Below, one piece after another: positions 1,897 to 13,791 of a stretch of 20,512 nucleotides of DNA (positions are counted from its first letter, which is position 1; every line of letters starts with the position of its first letter). The position numbers and the translations under genes are program-made. The notes under the pieces were generated by a model, which was not told the origin of the DNA, did not search any database, and saw only the letters and a list, made by a program, of their open reading frames with translations. Source of the stretch: a virus; the IMG/VR virus record IMGVR_UViG_3300025586_000032, positions 1 through 20,512 of that record; one strand, written 5' to 3'.

Positions 1897-3771
1897 TTAC
1901 ATTGCCATCCTGGCAACGATCTCCGAAGTCGACAACCCTTCATAAATTGATTTTCCAGGTCCCCCTCCTCTTAAAATTCCATCTAAGCCCAAAAGTAAGC
2001 CTACAATTCCATCTATTTTGCCCTGAGAAGTTGCTTTATTCGGAGATTTACCTCCGCCTGTTGGGTTTATTTTGACAGAAACGTTGTCCGCCATCCATCT
2101 CAGAATTTTATTGCCCCCATGATTCAATTTCCTCATAAGTAATAAGGTCTCCAGCCTTTGACATGGCATATTCATTGACACCCAGCCCATACCAACTGCC
2201 GCAACCATCGGATCTTTTTCAGTCCCCCCCAACTCCTCATCAAGTTTCCGTGCAAACGTGTATCCCTGGAATCCCCGGTCGATACCGATCCGCTGAATGT
2301 TGAACTTTTTGCTATCCTCCACGATATAGGCACGAATCACGTCCTCATCTATCGCGTCGCCCTCTGTAGTAAATAAACATCCCTGTTTTTTCCAGCCCTG
2401 ATATTGCTCCCTATATTTGTTTTTCGTGTCATAGAGGCGTGCCTCCGGGCACCATGTGCGAATCAGGACATCTATCAAGTCGGGATCATCTTCATCCGGG
2501 AATAACTGCACCCAAACTGTTAAGTCGCTTACCGATGATAAATCTATCCCCCCAAATGACATCCGACCTAAACAGGATTCTTCTGTAACTGGTCTGATAT
2601 TATTTTGATCCCATAATGCCAAATCTAACCATCTATTTTCTTGTTGAGTCCAGATATTTAGGCGTTTCGTTAAGAAGTTGTTTTGAGCAGACGGCATCTG
2701 CTTTGCAATTCGGCATTTATCCCGCATGTCCTCAATTTTGGTCATGTATCCCTGTATCGGGTGGCCGTCTTTGTCAATCCCAAATCGTTTACCACTTTCT
2801 GTAATTCCGACAATCCCCGGCGCCGCCTTTACCCAAGTGTCTTCATCAGTCCAGTCATCCTCATATTGTTCATTTCCCTGGAGGTCGTCTTTCTTTTCCT
2901 TCAGATTCGGCCAATCCTTCTTAGTGTCAAGGGTATAGATAATCCCAAAAAATGAGTCATCCTGGATTGTACCTTTCAAGATTTGGGTTAAATATTCCCG
3001 GGTCTCGTAGCAAATCCCGGTTTGGTTAAAACCCGCTGTTGTGATTATCAAAATCATTGGTTGTGACCTTGCACCTATCGAATCGGCCAGAAGATCATGA
3101 ACCTCTCTTGTCGGGTGAGCGTGTAATTCGTCAAGGCTGGCAAAGTGAGTGTCAAGACCATCAAGAGATTTAGCATCGCTTGACAGCGGTTCACACTTTG
3201 AGTTAGTGCCTAAAATAGAAAGGTTGTGTTTAAAATATGTGATATACTTTGCGAAGTCTGATTTTTTTGTAAGATTCTGGATATTGGTCCATACAAGTTT
3301 GGCCTGATCTCTGGTAACTGCAGCAGAATATATCTCAGCGCCTTCCTCTCCATCAGCTATAAAGAAATAAGACGCAAGACCTCCAGCGTATGTCGTTTTA
3401 CTGGCCTTTCGTGCGACCTCTATGTAAGCCTTCCTGAAGCGCCGCGACCTATCTTCTTGATACCACCCCATCAAACACCATGTGATAAAGGTAAAGTGCG
3501 GCGATAAAATGAACTCTTTCCCTTGATATTCCTTACCTTTCCATAATTTCAAATAAGAAAAGAATTTTACTGCAAGACCTGCTTTTTCACGATCAAAATA
3601 TAAACCTCTTTCATTGCGCGTTTTCCATGTCTTATGCTTCTTTGGTTTCTCATCATAGTGACGATTCACCGCCATTTTTACAAATCGACACGAAAGGATC
3701 TTCCCAGATCGAACGCCTTTAATATATACATCAACTATTTTTTCTATTGCCTTTATTTCTGATGGGTCCAT
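1897..3771 (-). CDS. terL: Terminase large subunit (TerL), HK97/Terminase_1 type
   Basis: This 624-residue protein is the ATP-driven motor and headful or end-cutting nuclease that packages phage DNA through the portal. The ATPase half has a Walker A-like element at about 119-127 (VARKASKTT), Walker B with catalytic Glu at 206-217 (THFASLDELHAH), and the coupling motif IITTAG near 242-247. The nuclease half shows the RNase H-like acidic residues: D410 in FGGIDLSS, D498 in GIDRG, and the late Asp in KIDGIVGLLLG near 587. Length and order are normal for the family. The Walker A is atypical (RKASKTT rather than RKNGKST), which is known in this family. The ATG directly follows the TerS stop (TAAATG), implying translational coupling. 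Confidence 0.97.
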   Translation of the reverse strand: MDPSEIKAIEKIVDVYIKGVRSGKILSCRFVKMAVNRHYDEKPKKHKTWKTRNERGLYFDREKAGLAVKFFSYLKLWKGKEYQGKEFILSPHFTFITWCLMGWYQEDRSRRFRKAYIEVARKASKTTYAGGLASYFFIADGEEGAEIYSAAVTRDQAKLVWTNIQNLTKKSDFAKYITYFKHNLSILGTNSKCEPLSSDAKSLDGLDTHFASLDELHAHPTREVHDLLADSIGARSQPMILIITTAGFNQTGICYETREYLTQILKGTIQDDSFFGIIYTLDTKKDWPNLKEKKDDLQGNEQYEDDWTDEDTWVKAAPGIVGITESGKRFGIDKDGHPIQGYMTKIEDMRDKCRIAKQMPSAQNNFLTKRLNIWTQQENRWLDLALWDQNNIRPVTEESCLGRMSFGGIDLSSVSDLTVWVQLFPDEDDPDLIDVLIRTWCPEARLYDTKNKYREQYQGWKKQGCLFTTEGDAIDEDVIRAYIVEDSKKFNIQRIGIDRGFQGYTFARKLDEELGGTEKDPMVAAVGMGWVSMNMPCQRLETLLLMRKLNHGGNKILRWMADNVSVKINPTGGGKSPNKATSQGKIDGIVGLLLGLDGILRGGGPGKSIYEGLSTSEIVARMAM

Positions 3772-6419: not shown

Positions 6420-6650
6420 CTATACTTCGCAAATAGCTCTCGCTTGAATCTCTTGAGTGCTTCGTACTCTTTTCAATTCAATCACAAAGTCGATAAATCT
6501 TTTAGTGTCCTCAAAACAGCACTTTTTACAGACCGTCCGTCCGTCTTCCAACTGCCATCCATCTGGTGGTCCGTCATCATAACCAATTGGCGTTCCGCAA
6601 TCTGCACAAGTTTGAATGTCAACAATATCGGCAAGGTTAATTTTTATCAT
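6420..6650 (-). CDS. Small zinc-finger protein, 76 aa
   Basis: The protein begins MIKINLADIV and carries one treble-clef-like zinc site: CADCG at about 15-19 and CKKC near 41-44, spaced by GWQLEDGRTV. The C-terminal 30 residues form a basic helix. No catalytic residues are visible; zinc-dependent DNA or protein binding is the natural guess. The ribosome site (GGAGGGGAGA) lies inside the 53-bp repeat at 6650-6702, which is a copy of the end of the 73-aa gene, so this gene was probably directly downstream of that gene before the intervening gene inserted. Confidence 0.65.
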   Translation of the reverse strand: MIKINLADIVDIQTCADCGTPIGYDDGPPDGWQLEDGRTVCKKCCFEDTKRFIDFVIELKRVRSTQEIQARAICEV

Positions 6651-6702
6651 TCTCCCCTCCTCACATCTTCAGTCCATCTTTGATTAATTGCAGGGCTTGG
6701 GG
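6650..6702. repeat. 53-bp perfect direct repeat, copy 1
   Basis: Identical to 7263-7315. It is a stranded copy of the last 13 or so codons, stop and downstream ribosome site of the 73-aa gene, and it now directly precedes the 76-aa zinc-finger gene, giving it its ribosome site. Confidence 0.97.
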
Positions 6703-6734: not shown

Positions 6735-7259
6735 TTAACTGATCTCCTTTTCCAGATTGTGTTTATGAAGATACTTACTACATATCTGATGTATATTTTG
6801 TCGTGAACATCCAAAGTCTTTAGAAATTTCGGCATATGTAGAGCCAGAGCGCCTCATGTCTAAGATTTGTCGATGTTTCTTTATTAATTCACATTCCCTA
6901 ATAATTTTATTTAAAACATTTTTGATATATTTTCTCTTCACTTTATTGCTGTTGTGAGATCCATGCTGTCCTCTACGATATATTCCAGCATTGTGTTCAC
7001 ATTGTAATTTAGCATATTGCTCTGAACGGCATGATTGGCACCATCTAACATTACGCTCCATTTTTTTTAGGATAAAAACCTTTCCACACGATTCACACTT
7101 TTTTGTTTTTTCTGGCAATGGCAACAAGTCGCCATTTTTAGCCATACGACCGCGCTTAAATCTTTGATAATGCAGGTTACAATATCCTAAAGTTTTGTTT
7201 GGCCAAATAGGATTTTTACAACCTATTATTTTGCATTCTGTATTATCAAATCCGTACAT
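6735..7259 (-). CDS. Mobile zinc-finger and HTH protein (homing-endonuclease-associated type)
   Basis: From ATG 7259 the product has 174 residues. It opens with a zinc element typical of HNH homing proteins (CKIIGCKNPIWP, then GYCNLHYQRFKRG), continues with a second one (CESCGKVF, then CQSCRSEQYAKLQC), a basic middle region, and a C-terminal HTH (YAEISKDFGCSRQNIHQI). I see no HNH catalytic triplet, so it may be a DNA-binding relic of a nuclease or act with another protein. The longer GTG start at 7277 is rejected because it would lie within the ribosome site; GGAGGGGAGAAAC precedes ATG 7259. The gene is flanked by 53-bp direct repeats, which marks it as an insertion. Confidence 0.75.
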   Translation of the reverse strand: MYGFDNTECKIIGCKNPIWPNKTLGYCNLHYQRFKRGRMAKNGDLLPLPEKTKKCESCGKVFILKKMERNVRWCQSCRSEQYAKLQCEHNAGIYRRGQHGSHNSNKVKRKYIKNVLNKIIRECELIKKHRQILDMRRSGSTYAEISKDFGCSRQNIHQICSKYLHKHNLEKEIS

Positions 7260-7262
7260 TGT

Positions 7263-7315
7263 TTCTCCCCTCCTCACATCTTCAGTCCATCTTTGATTAA
7301 TTGCAGGGCTTGGGG
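7263..7315. repeat. 53-bp perfect direct repeat, copy 2
   Basis: Identical to 6650-6702. Here it encodes the in-frame C-terminus of the 73-aa protein, its TGA stop (7274-7276), and the GGAGG ribosome site of the mobile zinc-finger gene. This is likely the original location of the upstream part. Confidence 0.97.
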
Positions 7316-7843: not shown

Positions 7844-10063
7844 TTACAATCTCCCCATCGGCGGATAATTGTCTTTTATTGTCTTCATGTCACCCTTGAA
7901 AAACACTAATATTTTCTGTTCACGTTTCGGGAACTTCCTATAATCAAGTGTGCGTTTTGCGTGTGCTAATCTTGTAAACTCACATTCAAGATAAACAATT
8001 TTATTATATATATGCAATCCCTGTTCTTTAAAAAACAGCTCATGTTCTGCCTCACATCCATAATATGCTCCGGTTTTGTCTCGACTGTCACCTGTCATAA
8101 TAACAAAAAAGCAGTTATCGTTTAGTTTAGATATTGCTCTTTTGTATCCTTTAAATAACGTGTCCCTGAACTCATCATATGTCGGTATGTTGTTTAATTC
8201 ACCTTCAGGTATAATGTTTTCGTAATCAACGTATTTTTCAACTTTATAGTAGGGTGGGCAAGAAAAACATAAATCAAACATACCGTCTGGCTCATACGTT
8301 GAGCTATCACTCTTTATCCAATTTGCACTATGAAGGTCTTGACATATCGCGTTATTAGCATCACACTGATTTTGTCTGATCTCGCTTGCAATATAGTCAA
8401 ACTTATAGCTACCAGTAACAAACCCGAACTGTACGCCCCCACCAAATGGATTATATACACGCTTGCCACCTACTGGCATAAAAAAACGCAATATAACCTC
8501 ACAAGCCACCGGATCAAGTACCGATGCGTTACCGTTAAACGACTTGCCTTTTTTCGTTTTCACTTTTCCGTTCTCTATGACTCTTTTAGTGAGAACTACA
8601 TTGGAATACCCATTACTCCCCTGCCAGCATCCATCACGGGACGCAAACTTTGGATTTGGTATGTTGTGCTTTTCGCCAGCAGCCTCGATTTTTGCGTTCC
8701 ATTCCTTTTTCATCTTGAGCCAATCTGAGCGAGTGGTCGTCCATGCGTTTGTCATGGTTGCATGTGCAAGGCGTTTCATCCTTACATCTTCTAATTTGCC
8801 ATAAACCATATACTCGAACCCACTTAATTTTAGATATGTCTTGAACCCAATGGCTTCAAAGACTTTGGGACATTCAAGGTCATGTTTTGTGCTTACAGTC
8901 ATTATCATAGGGTAGCCGAAAGTGTTTTGATCAATTATTTTGTTGACCATTTGGCTATAAATATCCTTGTCTTTCCTGTCCAGTTCCATAGCTGACTGTA
9001 AAAGGCAAAATTCTTTGGCCTCATGGTTGACCTGGAATGTGAAAAACCCGCTGAACTCATCGTTGATTTTCAGTATAATAGCTGAATGGATTTGCATATT
9101 TTTTCTTGCTGCCCTGTATGCAACCTTGTCTCTGATTGCTAAACCGGCTACAAGTTCTTCATACCCTGATCCTATGACGCTTTTGGCGTATTCAAATTCA
9201 ATTTTATTTGTAAACATATCAATCTGTGCCCTGGAAGATGGGTCGTATTTAATTTTAAACATATCCCCCTGTTTCTTATTCATTTTGTACCCTCCAATCC
9301 AAATGTTTTTAAAATCAACTCCACATTGATCTGAACACGTATTACATGGCCCTAAATATGCCGAATGTGTTGAAATGCTTACAGTTGACCCTCCGCCAAG
9401 GTTTTTGTGTTTACACGTTATTATATCACCTGAAACAACACGATGATCAGACTTTGGGATTCTAAGCGGGTTGTTGATAATGTCTGTATTCTCAAATATA
9501 TTATCCTGAATGTGTTTTAATTCACGGCCTTTATCTGTATTCCCAAATTTTGCAGAAACCACTCTCAATACAGAATTTACGCCTAATTCCTTAAGCCATT
9601 TAAACGTACTTACTCTATACTCTATTTCATCTTCAGTGTCTATAGGACTCGTTGAGGTATTAACCACTGCACCGCTTTTCCTGAGTGCTTTAGCGTGATT
9701 ATCAGACATGGGGATCCAATGTTTGGTAACAACCACCGGGATCTTAAACTTTCCCAACCATTCACAAATCTTAATAGTGTAATCCCAATCATACGAAGGA
9801 TCTCCCATCGTTCCTATTCTGAACCACGGCGACTTATGACGTATAACAACCCTTTCAATGTTTTCCCAACTGTATTCACTTCGTACAATAGATTTAGAAA
9901 AATCCATTCCATATAAGAATGCCATCTTCGAAGCGTAGCATAACCCGTAACACCCGCCATTGGGGTATTTTTTCATTCCCAAACTACACCCCTTTACCGT
10001 GTCAACATCCAAAACGCCTTTACGGTTTGTGGTGGCTGTTAGAACTGGTAGGTATTGCCGCAT
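7844..10063 (-). CDS. Three-domain fusion: radical-SAM-like, GNAT-like, DNA methyltransferase
   Basis: From ATG 10063 the product has 739 residues; it overlaps the upstream stop by ATGA, so the TTG at 10066 is not needed. Residues about 25-250 have Cys at GCSLGM and GGCYGLCYA and a further set CNTCSDQCG near 240-247, with barrel-like strands (FRIGTMGDPSYDW, PVVVTKHW); this recalls radical-SAM-like phage proteins with iron-sulfur sites. Residues about 285-425 look GNAT-like, ending in KVFEAIGFKTYL. Residues about 430-726 are a DNA methyltransferase: YNPFGGGVQFGFV (AdoMet binding, motif I) then CFSCPPYY (motif IV), with VIMTGDSRDKTGAYYG. The set suggests modification of bases beyond simple methylation. 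The methyltransferase call is strong, GNAT good, radical-SAM moderate. Confidence 0.8.
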   Translation of the reverse strand: MRQYLPVLTATTNRKGVLDVDTVKGCSLGMKKYPNGGCYGLCYASKMAFLYGMDFSKSIVRSEYSWENIERVVIRHKSPWFRIGTMGDPSYDWDYTIKICEWLGKFKIPVVVTKHWIPMSDNHAKALRKSGAVVNTSTSPIDTEDEIEYRVSTFKWLKELGVNSVLRVVSAKFGNTDKGRELKHIQDNIFENTDIINNPLRIPKSDHRVVSGDIITCKHKNLGGGSTVSISTHSAYLGPCNTCSDQCGVDFKNIWIGGYKMNKKQGDMFKIKYDPSSRAQIDMFTNKIEFEYAKSVIGSGYEELVAGLAIRDKVAYRAARKNMQIHSAIILKINDEFSGFFTFQVNHEAKEFCLLQSAMELDRKDKDIYSQMVNKIIDQNTFGYPMIMTVSTKHDLECPKVFEAIGFKTYLKLSGFEYMVYGKLEDVRMKRLAHATMTNAWTTTRSDWLKMKKEWNAKIEAAGEKHNIPNPKFASRDGCWQGSNGYSNVVLTKRVIENGKVKTKKGKSFNGNASVLDPVACEVILRFFMPVGGKRVYNPFGGGVQFGFVTGSYKFDYIASEIRQNQCDANNAICQDLHSANWIKSDSSTYEPDGMFDLCFSCPPYYKVEKYVDYENIIPEGELNNIPTYDEFRDTLFKGYKRAISKLNDNCFFVIMTGDSRDKTGAYYGCEAEHELFFKEQGLHIYNKIVYLECEFTRLAHAKRTLDYRKFPKREQKILVFFKGDMKTIKDNYPPMGRL

Positions 10064-10359
10064 CAATCCGCTTTCCCATCCTTCAGAAACGGTTTCCCGA
10101 ACTCATGTCCGCAGGCTTGGCAAATATAAATCTCCATCTTAATCAACTGGTCTTTCCCGGTTGGGTTCTTTGGCGATAACGCCGGGAAGGTTCTAAGTCG
10201 GTAAGCCATATTAAATAATTCTCCGCGCCCACACGCCTTACACTTCGTTTCCAGGGTATCCGCTTCATTAAGATTGACTTGTTGTGGTTGTCCTCTGCCT
10301 TGCATAATTGCCTCCTTTCTGCGTTGTTCAAAAGTTCCTCTATTCTTTGCCTCTCCCAT
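10063..10359 (-). CDS. Zinc-ribbon protein, 98 aa
   Basis: The start MGEAKNRGTFEQRRKEAI is a form often seen in small phage proteins. A zinc ribbon follows: CKACGRGE near residue 41 and CQACGHEF near residue 82, separated by about 40 residues. It probably binds nucleic acid or a partner protein. I choose ATG 10359 over a longer frame from 10395 because AAAGGAGAATAAA precedes it. Its stop overlaps the ATG of the 739-aa fusion (ATGA), so the two are translated together. Confidence 0.7.
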   Translation of the reverse strand: MGEAKNRGTFEQRRKEAIMQGRGQPQQVNLNEADTLETKCKACGRGELFNMAYRLRTFPALSPKNPTGKDQLIKMEIYICQACGHEFGKPFLKDGKAD

Positions 10360-11802: not shown

Positions 11803-12014
11803 TTACCTTGCCATGCCGTGCCTTGCCGTGCCTTGCCTCACCGGACCCTGCCGGACCCTACCCCACCGGATCAGCCATGCCACACCTTGCCAGACCATGC
11901 CGCACCCCGCGCCACCGTACCCCGCCATATCGGCCTTGCCACACCTTACCTAACCTTGCCCTACCTCACCATGCCTCACCAAACCGGGCCTGACCCGACC
12001 CCGCCTCATCAGCC
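11803..12014. repeat. Degenerate pentamer array A (NNRCC)
   Basis: About 42 five-base units with a free first two bases, purine at base 3 and CC at 4-5 (for example TTGCC ATGCC GTGCC). The phase is reset by the 9-mers GGATCAGCC (11868-11876), ATATCGGCC (11927-11935) and TCATCAGCC (12006-12014), that is, a unit with ATC followed by a four-base unit. On the transcript the pattern is GGYNN. It lies between the 185-aa gene and a small membrane protein gene and gives long false open frames on both strands. Confidence 0.92.
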
Positions 12015-12018
12015 ACGT

Positions 12019-12576
12019 CTATTCATTAACGGCATTCTTATATTCCACATCAGCAACAAGCTTGACCTTCTTCTTTTTCTTGGCCGTCACAACTGCCTGG
12101 ACTTCATCAATCGCCTTGAAAACAGGCTTTAGCTCTGAATATTCTCGATGTCTTTTCTTCCATCCGGCAAGTTCATTCAACGCCTTATCAATAACCTGTT
12201 CTCTATAATCAGCCGAATTGACAACCGCACTTAATGAGATATATCCCCGGTCTTTTGACGCTTCAACAACCTGGATGTTGTGAAACATCTTGATCGTTTT
12301 ATTTTCCTTGTTTCCGTTGTCAATGATTTCGACCTCAATATGGTTCATGAGTTGCCGGGCTTGATGCATTCGATATTTTGCCCCCGCTTCAGAATTATCC
12401 CACTCAAAATAATCGTGTATGACAGATCTTTTCTTTTTGGCCTTATCCACGACTATGGAGGGAGTTAAAACACCCTCTTTTTTTTCAATCTCGGATAAAC
12501 ATTCACCGTATGCCTGGACCTTTTTTTCGCTGAATGGCGCACCTGGAGCCGCCACATAAATCGTTGTTATTTCCAT
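12019..12576 (-). CDS. Phage protein of unknown function, 185 aa
   Basis: The middle carries LTPSIVVDKAKKKRSVIHDY followed by FEWDNSEAGAKYRMHQARQL, a pattern found in a widespread phage family of unknown function. The rest is Lys-rich and helical, with a basic tail (AKKKKKVKL). No catalytic set is visible. A strong run of G (AGGGGGACAAT) precedes the ATG. Pentamer arrays lie on both sides of the gene. Its usual neighbours in phages, from memory, are recombination or replication genes; here the next gene upstream is the 228-aa protein, which is consistent. No function is assigned. Confidence 0.65.
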   Translation of the reverse strand: MEITTIYVAAPGAPFSEKKVQAYGECLSEIEKKEGVLTPSIVVDKAKKKRSVIHDYFEWDNSEAGAKYRMHQARQLMNHIEVEIIDNGNKENKTIKMFHNIQVVEASKDRGYISLSAVVNSADYREQVIDKALNELAGWKKRHREYSELKPVFKAIDEVQAVVTAKKKKKVKLVADVEYKNAVNE

Positions 12577-12604
12577 ATTGTCCCCCTTGTTTAGTTGGTT
12601 TATA

Positions 12605-12985
12605 TTGCCTTACCTCGCCATGCCGTACCCCGCCGCGCCGCACAGCGCCCCGCCTCATCAGCCTTGCCCAACCAAACCTCACCGCACCGCACCTCGCCTT
12701 ACCAAACCCCGCACCGCCTTGCCTCACCAGATCAGCCTCACCTTACCAAACCTTACCCCGCCATATCCTGCCACACCGCGCCTCACCTCTTCAGCCGTGC
12801 CTTGCCCAACCAAACCGGACCTGACCCCGCCTCGCCTGACCCTGCCTCGCCATATCAGCCCTACCGCACCGCGCCCCACCTCACCAAACCAAACCTCACC
12901 TCGCCGCACCCCGCCATACCTCGCCCCGCCTTACCACGCCAAACCCCACCTTGCCCCACCGTGCCGGGCCTCACCCAACCCCGTC
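12605..12985. repeat. Degenerate pentamer array B (NNRCC)
   Basis: About 77 five-base units of the same type as array A. The phase-resetting 9-mers are TCATCAGCC (12655-12663), AGATCAGCC (12729-12737), TCTTCAGCC (12788-12796) and ATATCAGCC (12852-12860). One further ATATC unit (12763) is not followed by a four-base unit. Copies of the 9-mer lie 74, 59 and 64 bp apart. It lies between the 228-aa and 185-aa genes and is separated from the former by a probable terminator. Confidence 0.93.
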
Positions 12986-12987
12986 TC

Positions 12988-13019
12988 AAAAAAGGGGCCA
13001 GCTCTCACCAACCCCTCTT
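12988..13019 (-). terminator. Probable intrinsic terminator after the 228-aa gene
   Basis: On the minus strand AGGGG (13016-13012) can pair with CCCCT (12997-12993), with extra G-U and A-U pairs possible, and the arm is followed by six T (12993-12988). It ends just before array B begins. The loop is about 14 bases, so the stem is modest. Confidence 0.5.
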
Positions 13020-13022
13020 CAA

Positions 13023-13709
13023 TTACCTTCTCAACATAAACATACCGTTCGACCCGCCCTTCTCGGGCCGCCATTCGGCAACACCAACCGCAAATCCAGA
13101 CGTGTCGATCAAATTGCAAACCTGTTCAGGGGTCAATGCCCTGGGGTTACATTCAACCATCAAATCCGCACTCCAATCTCGCAATTCACCCCTAAAACGC
13201 AAATCCACAACCCCGCCCCTTGCCAGCCTAACCGTATCCTGGCGAATTATGATCTTATCATATTTGATTTCAACCATGCCGCCGGCATCTTCCTTGACAA
13301 AGAAAGCCCCCTTTGCTAACGTCATAGGTATTCCATCAACATTCCTGCAGGCGGAGACAGCCGCTTTCTTGAATCCGCTTGCAGGAAATCCCAAAGGAAT
13401 ATCCTTAAAGTATTTTTTCACGTCATCCCCAACCTGAACGTCATCAGAATGGAGCTTGTCAATCAAACCCTCACGGCTGGCACCGTTCATGAAATAAAGG
13501 GACTGAACAAAGTCGGCAATCGGATCTTTGGCCGCCTTCCCCTTGTTCGCCTTACCCTTCTGTTTATCAAGGATTTCGCCTTTCACTTTGTCGCTGAACA
13601 TATGAACAATCATCGGGGATGTCCCCACGATAGGAACTTTTATTATTTTCCTTTCCATTTCAGGAACTTCAATACCCAATACATTGTCTTTCACTTTTGC
13701 TTTTGCCAT
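13023..13709 (-). CDS. Phage protein with faint Cas7/RAMP-like motifs, 228 aa
   Basis: I start at ATG 13709 (MAKAKVKDNV), preceded by GGGGAG; a longer frame from 13754 would add a basic stretch without a ribosome site. Three blocks stand out: VPIVGTSPMIVHMFSDK near 25-41, LGFPASGFKKAAVSACR near 106-122, and VGVAEWRPEKGGSNGMFML near 208-226. The second is reminiscent of the IPGSSLKGALR block of Cas7/Csm3-type RAMP proteins, and the last is a glycine-rich strand-turn. This is by eye only and may be chance; no CRISPR array or other cas gene is present. In many phages proteins with this start occur near recombination genes, so a single-strand-annealing or RNA/DNA-binding role is possible. Confidence 0.55.
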   Translation of the reverse strand: MAKAKVKDNVLGIEVPEMERKIIKVPIVGTSPMIVHMFSDKVKGEILDKQKGKANKGKAAKDPIADFVQSLYFMNGASREGLIDKLHSDDVQVGDDVKKYFKDIPLGFPASGFKKAAVSACRNVDGIPMTLAKGAFFVKEDAGGMVEIKYDKIIIRQDTVRLARGGVVDLRFRGELRDWSADLMVECNPRALTPEQVCNLIDTSGFAVGVAEWRPEKGGSNGMFMLRR

Positions 13710-13737: not shown

Positions 13738-13791
13738 TTACGCCGGAACCGCAATCAACAATATTCCAATAATCAATAATACCTTTTTCAT
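13738..13791 (-). CDS. 17-aa hydrophobic peptide (candidate)
   Basis: The frame gives MKKVLLIIGILLIAVPA, a basic start and a hydrophobic run like a signal-peptide core. GGGAGGCAAC precedes the ATG, which overlaps the stop of the previous gene (ATGA). The size makes it uncertain; it could be a translated leader peptide rather than a protein. Confidence 0.4.
   Translation of the reverse strand: MKKVLLIIGILLIAVPA

Follow-up and report, generated by a model that had tools for sequence, protein, structure and literature searches.

In class 1 CRISPR-Cas systems, proteins assemble along the guide RNA as a helical filament, with base pairing to the target interrupted periodically. TIGR-Tas also achieves RNA-guided DNA recognition with tandem short guide elements, but its protein family and its array layout differ from those of the locus we describe here. 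Closest to this locus is VIPR (Viral Interference Programmable Repeat), an RNA-guided system described only recently, in a 2026 preprint (PMC13142463), for which an origin before CRISPR has been proposed. According to that account, a RAMP-like protein, Vipr, works with vrRNAs of 9 to 16 YNNGG units, the NN of each unit pairs with DNA with a 1-nt skip, and competing phages are repressed. Expression of vrRNAs and their binding by Vipr are known for other VIPRs, accessory vap genes are DNA-binding in some types, and arrays have been reported that are interspersed with hammerheads or are staggered and overlapping (PMC13142463). The type II systems of SUSP1 and P. fulva have single vrRNAs of about 100 nt, each with an invariant structured 3′ tail (PMC13142463).

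The locus we analysed is almost certainly a phage-encoded VIPR system, whose arrays would be transcribed as guide RNAs, processed at the 9-mers that separate them and directed at targets. The original prediction, made from the sequence, recognized two long pentamer arrays and knew of no described function for them, a statement now outdated since VIPR vrRNAs have the same make-up as these arrays. As in described VIPR systems, most of which are carried by viruses or proviruses, a small RAMP-fold Vipr adjoins tandem GGY/NN pentamers, an accessory gene is present and the whole is borne by a phage. Unlike those of the type II systems in SUSP1 and P. fulva, the guides here stand head to tail with only a 9-mer and its −1 slip between them. 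The boundaries and array ends that we tested have no stable fold, a structured 3′ tail like that of the SUSP1 vrRNAs is absent, and we have not filed the locus as type II. The RAMP fold is also common to Vipr and the Csm3/Cas7 backbone of type III, class 1 CRISPR-Cas. In contrast to CRISPR-Cas, there are no CRISPR-type direct repeats in the DNA analysed; no cas families emerged from Pfam/PADLOC scans of Vipr and the accessory protein or from Pfam scans of the other genes tested; and a pentamer code with proposed 1-nt target gaps stands in place of a contiguous spacer.

The locus and its arrays

The stretch of DNA we analysed, called the window throughout, is 20,512 nt of IMG/VR virus record IMGVR_UViG_3300025586_000032. 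Its minus strand carries nearly all the genes, and it also holds terminase and primase/helicase genes. The repeat reads NNRCC on the plus strand, which is GGYNN on the minus strand. Array 2 adjoins the 3′ side of a gene for a 228-aa protein, which we call vipr, and array 1 comes after a gene for a 185-aa protein. The features are as follows:

11803-12014, minus: GGYNN array 1, guides S6-S8; 40 units, 39 of them perfect, three 4-nt insertions; three 9-mer boundaries
11868-11876, minus: boundary 9-mer GGCTGATCC
11927-11935, minus: boundary 9-mer GGCCGATAT
12006-12014, minus: boundary 9-mer GGCTGATGA, 5′ end of array 1
12019-12576, minus: vap-like accessory gene, 185 aa, between the arrays; winged-helix-like N-terminal part, long C-terminal helices
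12577-12604, minus: leader of the accessory gene, rich in A and C, with its ribosome-binding site, read from sequence, directly past the last GGY unit
12605-12980, minus: GGYNN array 2, guides S1a/S1b-S5; 72 units, 69 of them perfect, four insertions; four 9-mer boundaries
12655-12663, minus: boundary 9-mer GGCTGATGA
12729-12737, minus: boundary 9-mer GGCTGATCT
12788-12796, minus: boundary 9-mer GGCTGAAGA
12852-12860, minus: boundary 9-mer GGCTGATAT
12916-12925, minus: GGCGAGGTAT in the window, 9-mer GGCTGATAT in sibling contig L134, where this boundary splits a 25-unit stretch into two guides
12989-13020, minus: stem-loop of 14 bp with a U-run, after the vipr stop codon and before array 2 (first guide)
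13023-13709, minus: vipr, 228 aa, RAMP/Cas7-like; 243 aa if translation began at the TTG at 13754

Across the 112 units, column entropies are 0, 0, 0.99 (C/T), 1.85 and 1.95 bits: GG is fixed, the third base is an even choice of C or T, and NN is near-random. Units stay in phase for up to 15 and 25 in a row, whereas 500 dinucleotide shuffles of the array DNA never exceed 5. The window contains no GGYNN runs on the plus strand and no runs of the reversed pattern. These entropies confirm the original prediction of two nearly free bases and three fixed ones, the third fixed base being a C/T choice. Its copy numbers, 42 and 77, come close to the 40 and 72 units we count, and the 9-mers were found where it had them, breaking the arrays at 59-79 bp spacing into a two-level structure. 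That both arrays are broken at this spacing holds except for the first 25 units of array 2, where the window record has no 9-mer.

On the gene strand the 9-mer is GGCTGATNN, with variants GGCCGATAT and GGCTGAAGA, and successive copies are 64, 59 and 74 bp apart in array 2 and 79 and 59 bp apart in array 1. Leaving aside the contig edge, L134 and the window share about 9.1 kb that differ only by one extra 9-mer in L134; once this is counted, the segments of the window are about 10-16 units long. The stem-loop before the first guide has a minimum free energy of −20.2 kcal/mol (z −3.8), and none of 200 shuffles was equally stable. We infer that it is a terminator or the leader of the guide precursor. 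The leader at 12577-12604 had no stable fold in a folding test.

Vipr, its accessory protein and their relatives

The 228-aa protein belongs to phrog_4652 and the 185-aa protein to phrog_15946, both of unknown function in annotation. A profile of the Vipr family (79 homologs) matched one solved chain, PDB 36pp_D, the 'SUSP1 Vipr protein', with E 7.8e-43, and a profile of the window's own clade matched it with E 2.3e-11. Pairwise similarity between the single 228-aa protein and SUSP1 Vipr is weak (E 9e-4), and the identity of Vipr therefore rests on profiles, fold and context. Its AlphaFold (AF2) model, with pLDDT 94.8, finds its best structural matches among Csm3/Cas7 RAMP chains (Foldseek E 5e-6, VIA Z 10.8). 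The AF2 model of the 185-aa protein is nearly as confident (pLDDT 92.5) and has weak winged-helix/MarR-type matches only, at Z 5 to 7; we found no strong PDB relative of this fold. We take it to be the accessory (Vap) protein of the system; it is probably DNA-binding.

A scan of IMG/VR for ten exact repeat units returned at least 120 stretches. Among the 120 matches listed, most have a free NN, and the preference for C or T differs between phages. Profile iteration from the 228-aa protein found a Vipr homolog in 85 of these 120 loci, or 86 with the window included. Every one of the 155 arrays at these Vipr-encoding loci and in the window lies on the Vipr strand, and most start 5-15 bp past the stop codon. 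About 35 of the 120 listed loci have no Vipr homolog, several of them being short fragments and some plain microsatellites. Among 132 loci, most of them found by protein, there is an array within 3 kb in 108 and none on the opposite strand; a homolog of the 185-aa protein is encoded on the same strand at 119 of the 132. The period-5 signal is thus present in related phages beside homologous genes, always on the same strand, which bears out the view that the pattern is under selection and tied to its two neighbouring genes. Locus and relatives together show VIPR to be widespread in uncultured phages.

Cultured phages have it too. Gordonia phages UmaThurman, ODay, Pipp and Ecliptus and Mycobacterium phages Quico, Pippy, ByChance, Saal, Donkeykong, Gorge, Brocalys and Philus (loci L129, L133 and L281-L290) have vipr under the label 'hypothetical protein' and, next to it, GGYNN arrays punctuated by 9-mers. 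The arrays are unannotated or inside predicted small ORFs, and whole guide segments vary between siblings. VIPR becomes testable here in standard laboratory strains. Pseudomonas phage LESphi2 (L132) looks different: at 3131-3640 its GGYNN units form separate tracts, G-GGCTG closes each tract and non-repeat sequence comes next, with vipr as the neighbouring hypothetical gene. These tracts are more like the tailed vrRNAs described in PMC13142463.

Register slips and the proposed targeting code

We measured slips at all loci as the distance from the last GGY of one run to the first GGY of the next, leaving out in-phase gaps (multiples of 5). Where one quarter would be expected, 339 of the 411 out-of-phase gaps equal 4 modulo 5 (4, 9, 14, and so on to 39), a bias with a log10 p of about −131 if gaps are treated as independent. 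The arrays therefore slip by −1 nt. The usual form of the slip is GGCA and then GGCNN (GGCAGGCNN), which the window writes as GGCTGATNN and others as GGCGTTCAN or GGCACCGCA; clades other than the window's use GGCAGGC, GGCGTTC or GGCACCG at slips.

Segments bounded by slips are mostly 8-14 units long. In the best of the guide-target matches listed, pairing stays within one segment and ends before the constant AG unit. In the genus Cheoctovirus (cultured mycobacteriophages), siblings differ by whole segments, gained or absent precisely where the slips lie: Brocalys and Pippy have two fewer than Donkeykong, and ByChance has one fewer than Saal and Gorge. In Gordonia, the phages Pipp and UmaThurman have vipr in common and different guides. 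Since pairing lies within segments, segments come and go at slips and L134 differs by a single extra 9-mer, we take the slips to separate guides. A general rule probably holds for tail-less VIPR arrays: one 4-nt unit, a −1 slip within a clade-specific 9-mer, marks where a guide stops and its successor begins, and phages gain, lose and exchange guides as whole segments between slips. If the rule is true, guide boundaries can be read from sequence alone: tandem guides can be cut out and decoded without RNA data, and how phages choose and renew their guides becomes testable. The −1 slip, the modularity of segments and the evidence from siblings are what our analysis adds; the 'staggered arrays' described in PMC13142463 (fig. 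S18) may have this same layout. In bounded guides from 91 loci, the NN that comes directly after a slip varies less than the others do (3.43 vs about 3.9 bits), with AT, GA, AA and GT favoured, and may mark a special position at the guide end.

Bounded guides also allowed us to look at the code, by comparing 199 of them from relatives with other loci. Allowing two mismatches or fewer, 17 of the 199 guides found matches with a skip of 1, and 3, 5 and 4 with skips of 0, 2 and 3; 30 shuffles of unit order gave 7.5 ± 1.9 at skip 1, with a maximum of 11. At one mismatch or fewer the count was 4, against a shuffle mean of 0.17. The targets that stand out most clearly are read in frame, and the skipped base falls on the wobble position. 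Guides from L239 and L146 match IEKADGGYA in genes that L021 and L107 have for Sak4-like annealing proteins, guides from L136 and L174 match a conserved EDMVR-GM-GTAD motif in the vipr genes of other phages (EDMVRIGMGTAD), and a single large gene of L235 holds candidate matches to two guides from L240. These sequence comparisons support a 1-nt skip code in the window's clade, as in the VIPR already described, with some guides apparently matching the vipr genes of rivals. The candidate matches agree with the warfare between phages, and the targeting of VIPR by VIPR, reported in PMC13142463, and they lie outside the SUSP1 and P. fulva clades on which experiments were done there.

We read nine guides from the window, with S1a and S1b divided by the extra 9-mer of L134. 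As NN strings they read:

S1a: TG GA CC AC GG AA GG TT GT AA GG TG
S1b: AT GG GC GA GA TT TT GA GG GC GC AG TG
S2: AT GA AG CA GA GG CA CC TT TG AA AC TG
S3: GA GA GC GT AG AT GG AA TT AA GA TG
S4: CT GA AA GG GG TT AA GA GC GC GA TT TG AA TG
S5: GA GG GC GC GC GG AC AT GA AA AA
S6: GA GG CG CA CC TT GA AT GA AG AA TA AA GT AA CG
S7: AT GG AC GG GG GC AT CT AA GT AT TG
S8: CC GG AG CC AG CC GA AA AC AA AC AT AA AA

Cores of 16 or 18 bases from S1a, S2, S4, S6 and S7 were scanned against IMG/VR, giving 4, 10, 3 (2 independent), 0 and 3 (1 independent) exact matches, respectively; this is chance level and yields no confident target. In-frame matches of S2 to a major head protein (20/20, over its first ten units), of S4 to an exonuclease and of S7 to a tail-type protein were rejected, as the numbers fit chance. 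Actinophage guides gave nothing significant against the loci compared, which included about 0.4 Mb of actinophage DNA. Sense/antisense codon bias of the NN strings gave a guide variance of 0.40 vs 0.28 ± 0.015 in shuffles, a hint only, as composition between phages confounds it. Wider family alignments are too divergent for degenerate-pattern searches.

How might the parts work together? The arrays would be transcribed with the operon to give guide RNA (vrRNA) precursors. Vipr subunits, with their RAMP/Cas7 fold, would line the RNA, probably one to each GGYNN unit, gripping the GGY and leaving the NN exposed. These NN pairs would read the double-stranded DNA of a rival phage as NNxNNxNN and so on, the skipped base usually being a codon wobble position, and the bound complex would repress the target gene. 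Each 9-mer, by holding one 4-nt unit, would shift the register by −1 nt, and each stretch between slips, of about 8-14 units, would be one guide with its own target. Of the functions first proposed for the GGY-containing transcript, a protein lattice is the mechanism we judge best; the pattern can be accounted for without G-quadruplexes.

Alternative readings and other features of the window

One alternative explanation is a GGC/GGT-type pentamer that was expanded by slippage and has since decayed as a degenerate microsatellite with no function, and some matches to the pattern, such as L116 and L117, are indeed exact repeats with no Vipr nearby. Yet an invariant GGY beside a near-random NN is the opposite of decay. 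Moreover, strand and neighbour genes are fixed for all 155 arrays at the listed loci and in the window, 339 of 411 slips are 4 modulo 5, and the NN strings match phage genes through the skip code more often than shuffles do. We dropped the plain microsatellite, and with it the idea of Rho sites, because strand and neighbour genes are fixed, and we give it next to no credence. Hardly more credible is a structural RNA that does without base-pair targeting, whether it forms two-layer G-quadruplexes or R-loops or acts as a decoy for an RNA-binding protein. GG every 5 nt could form two-layer quadruplexes, and a RAMP-fold protein is encoded alongside, but quadruplexes need neither C/T after each GG, nor a constant 5-nt pitch, nor a −1 slip, and they leave the matches between NN strings and phage genes unexplained.

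A closer alternative accepts VIPR guides and reinterprets the 9-mers, as internal kinks in longer vrRNAs or as self-cleaving sites such as hammerheads. Arrays of both the hammerhead-interspersed and the staggered overlapping kind are reported in PMC13142463, and GGCTGATGA resembles the CUGAUGA core. CUGANGA, however, fits only 3 of the 7 9-mers (the two copies of GGCTGATGA and one GGCTGAAGA), and no GAAA follows inside the arrays. A search of Rfam for known RNA families, the hammerhead included, returned nothing relevant, with no hammerhead match up to E 1; the boundaries tested have no stable fold, and other clades have GGCAGGC, GGCGTTC or GGCACCG in the same place. Both pairing and the gain and loss of segments respect the boundaries. 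We consider this alternative unlikely and keep the 9-mers as separators between guides.

Three features of the window lie away from the arrays. The gene at 7844-10066 (minus) encodes 740 aa, and the C-terminal part of the protein resembles methyltransferases (phrog_498, phrog_12517); its cysteine-containing N-terminal part has no Pfam or NCBIfam match. An exact 53-bp direct repeat (6650-6702 and 7263-7315) flanks a 180-aa reading frame with CxxC pairs (6735-7277, minus), possibly a mobile gene insertion. At 353-395, a 20-bp unit, GAACTGATATGAAAATTTAT, is repeated in 2.2 copies with zero mismatches.
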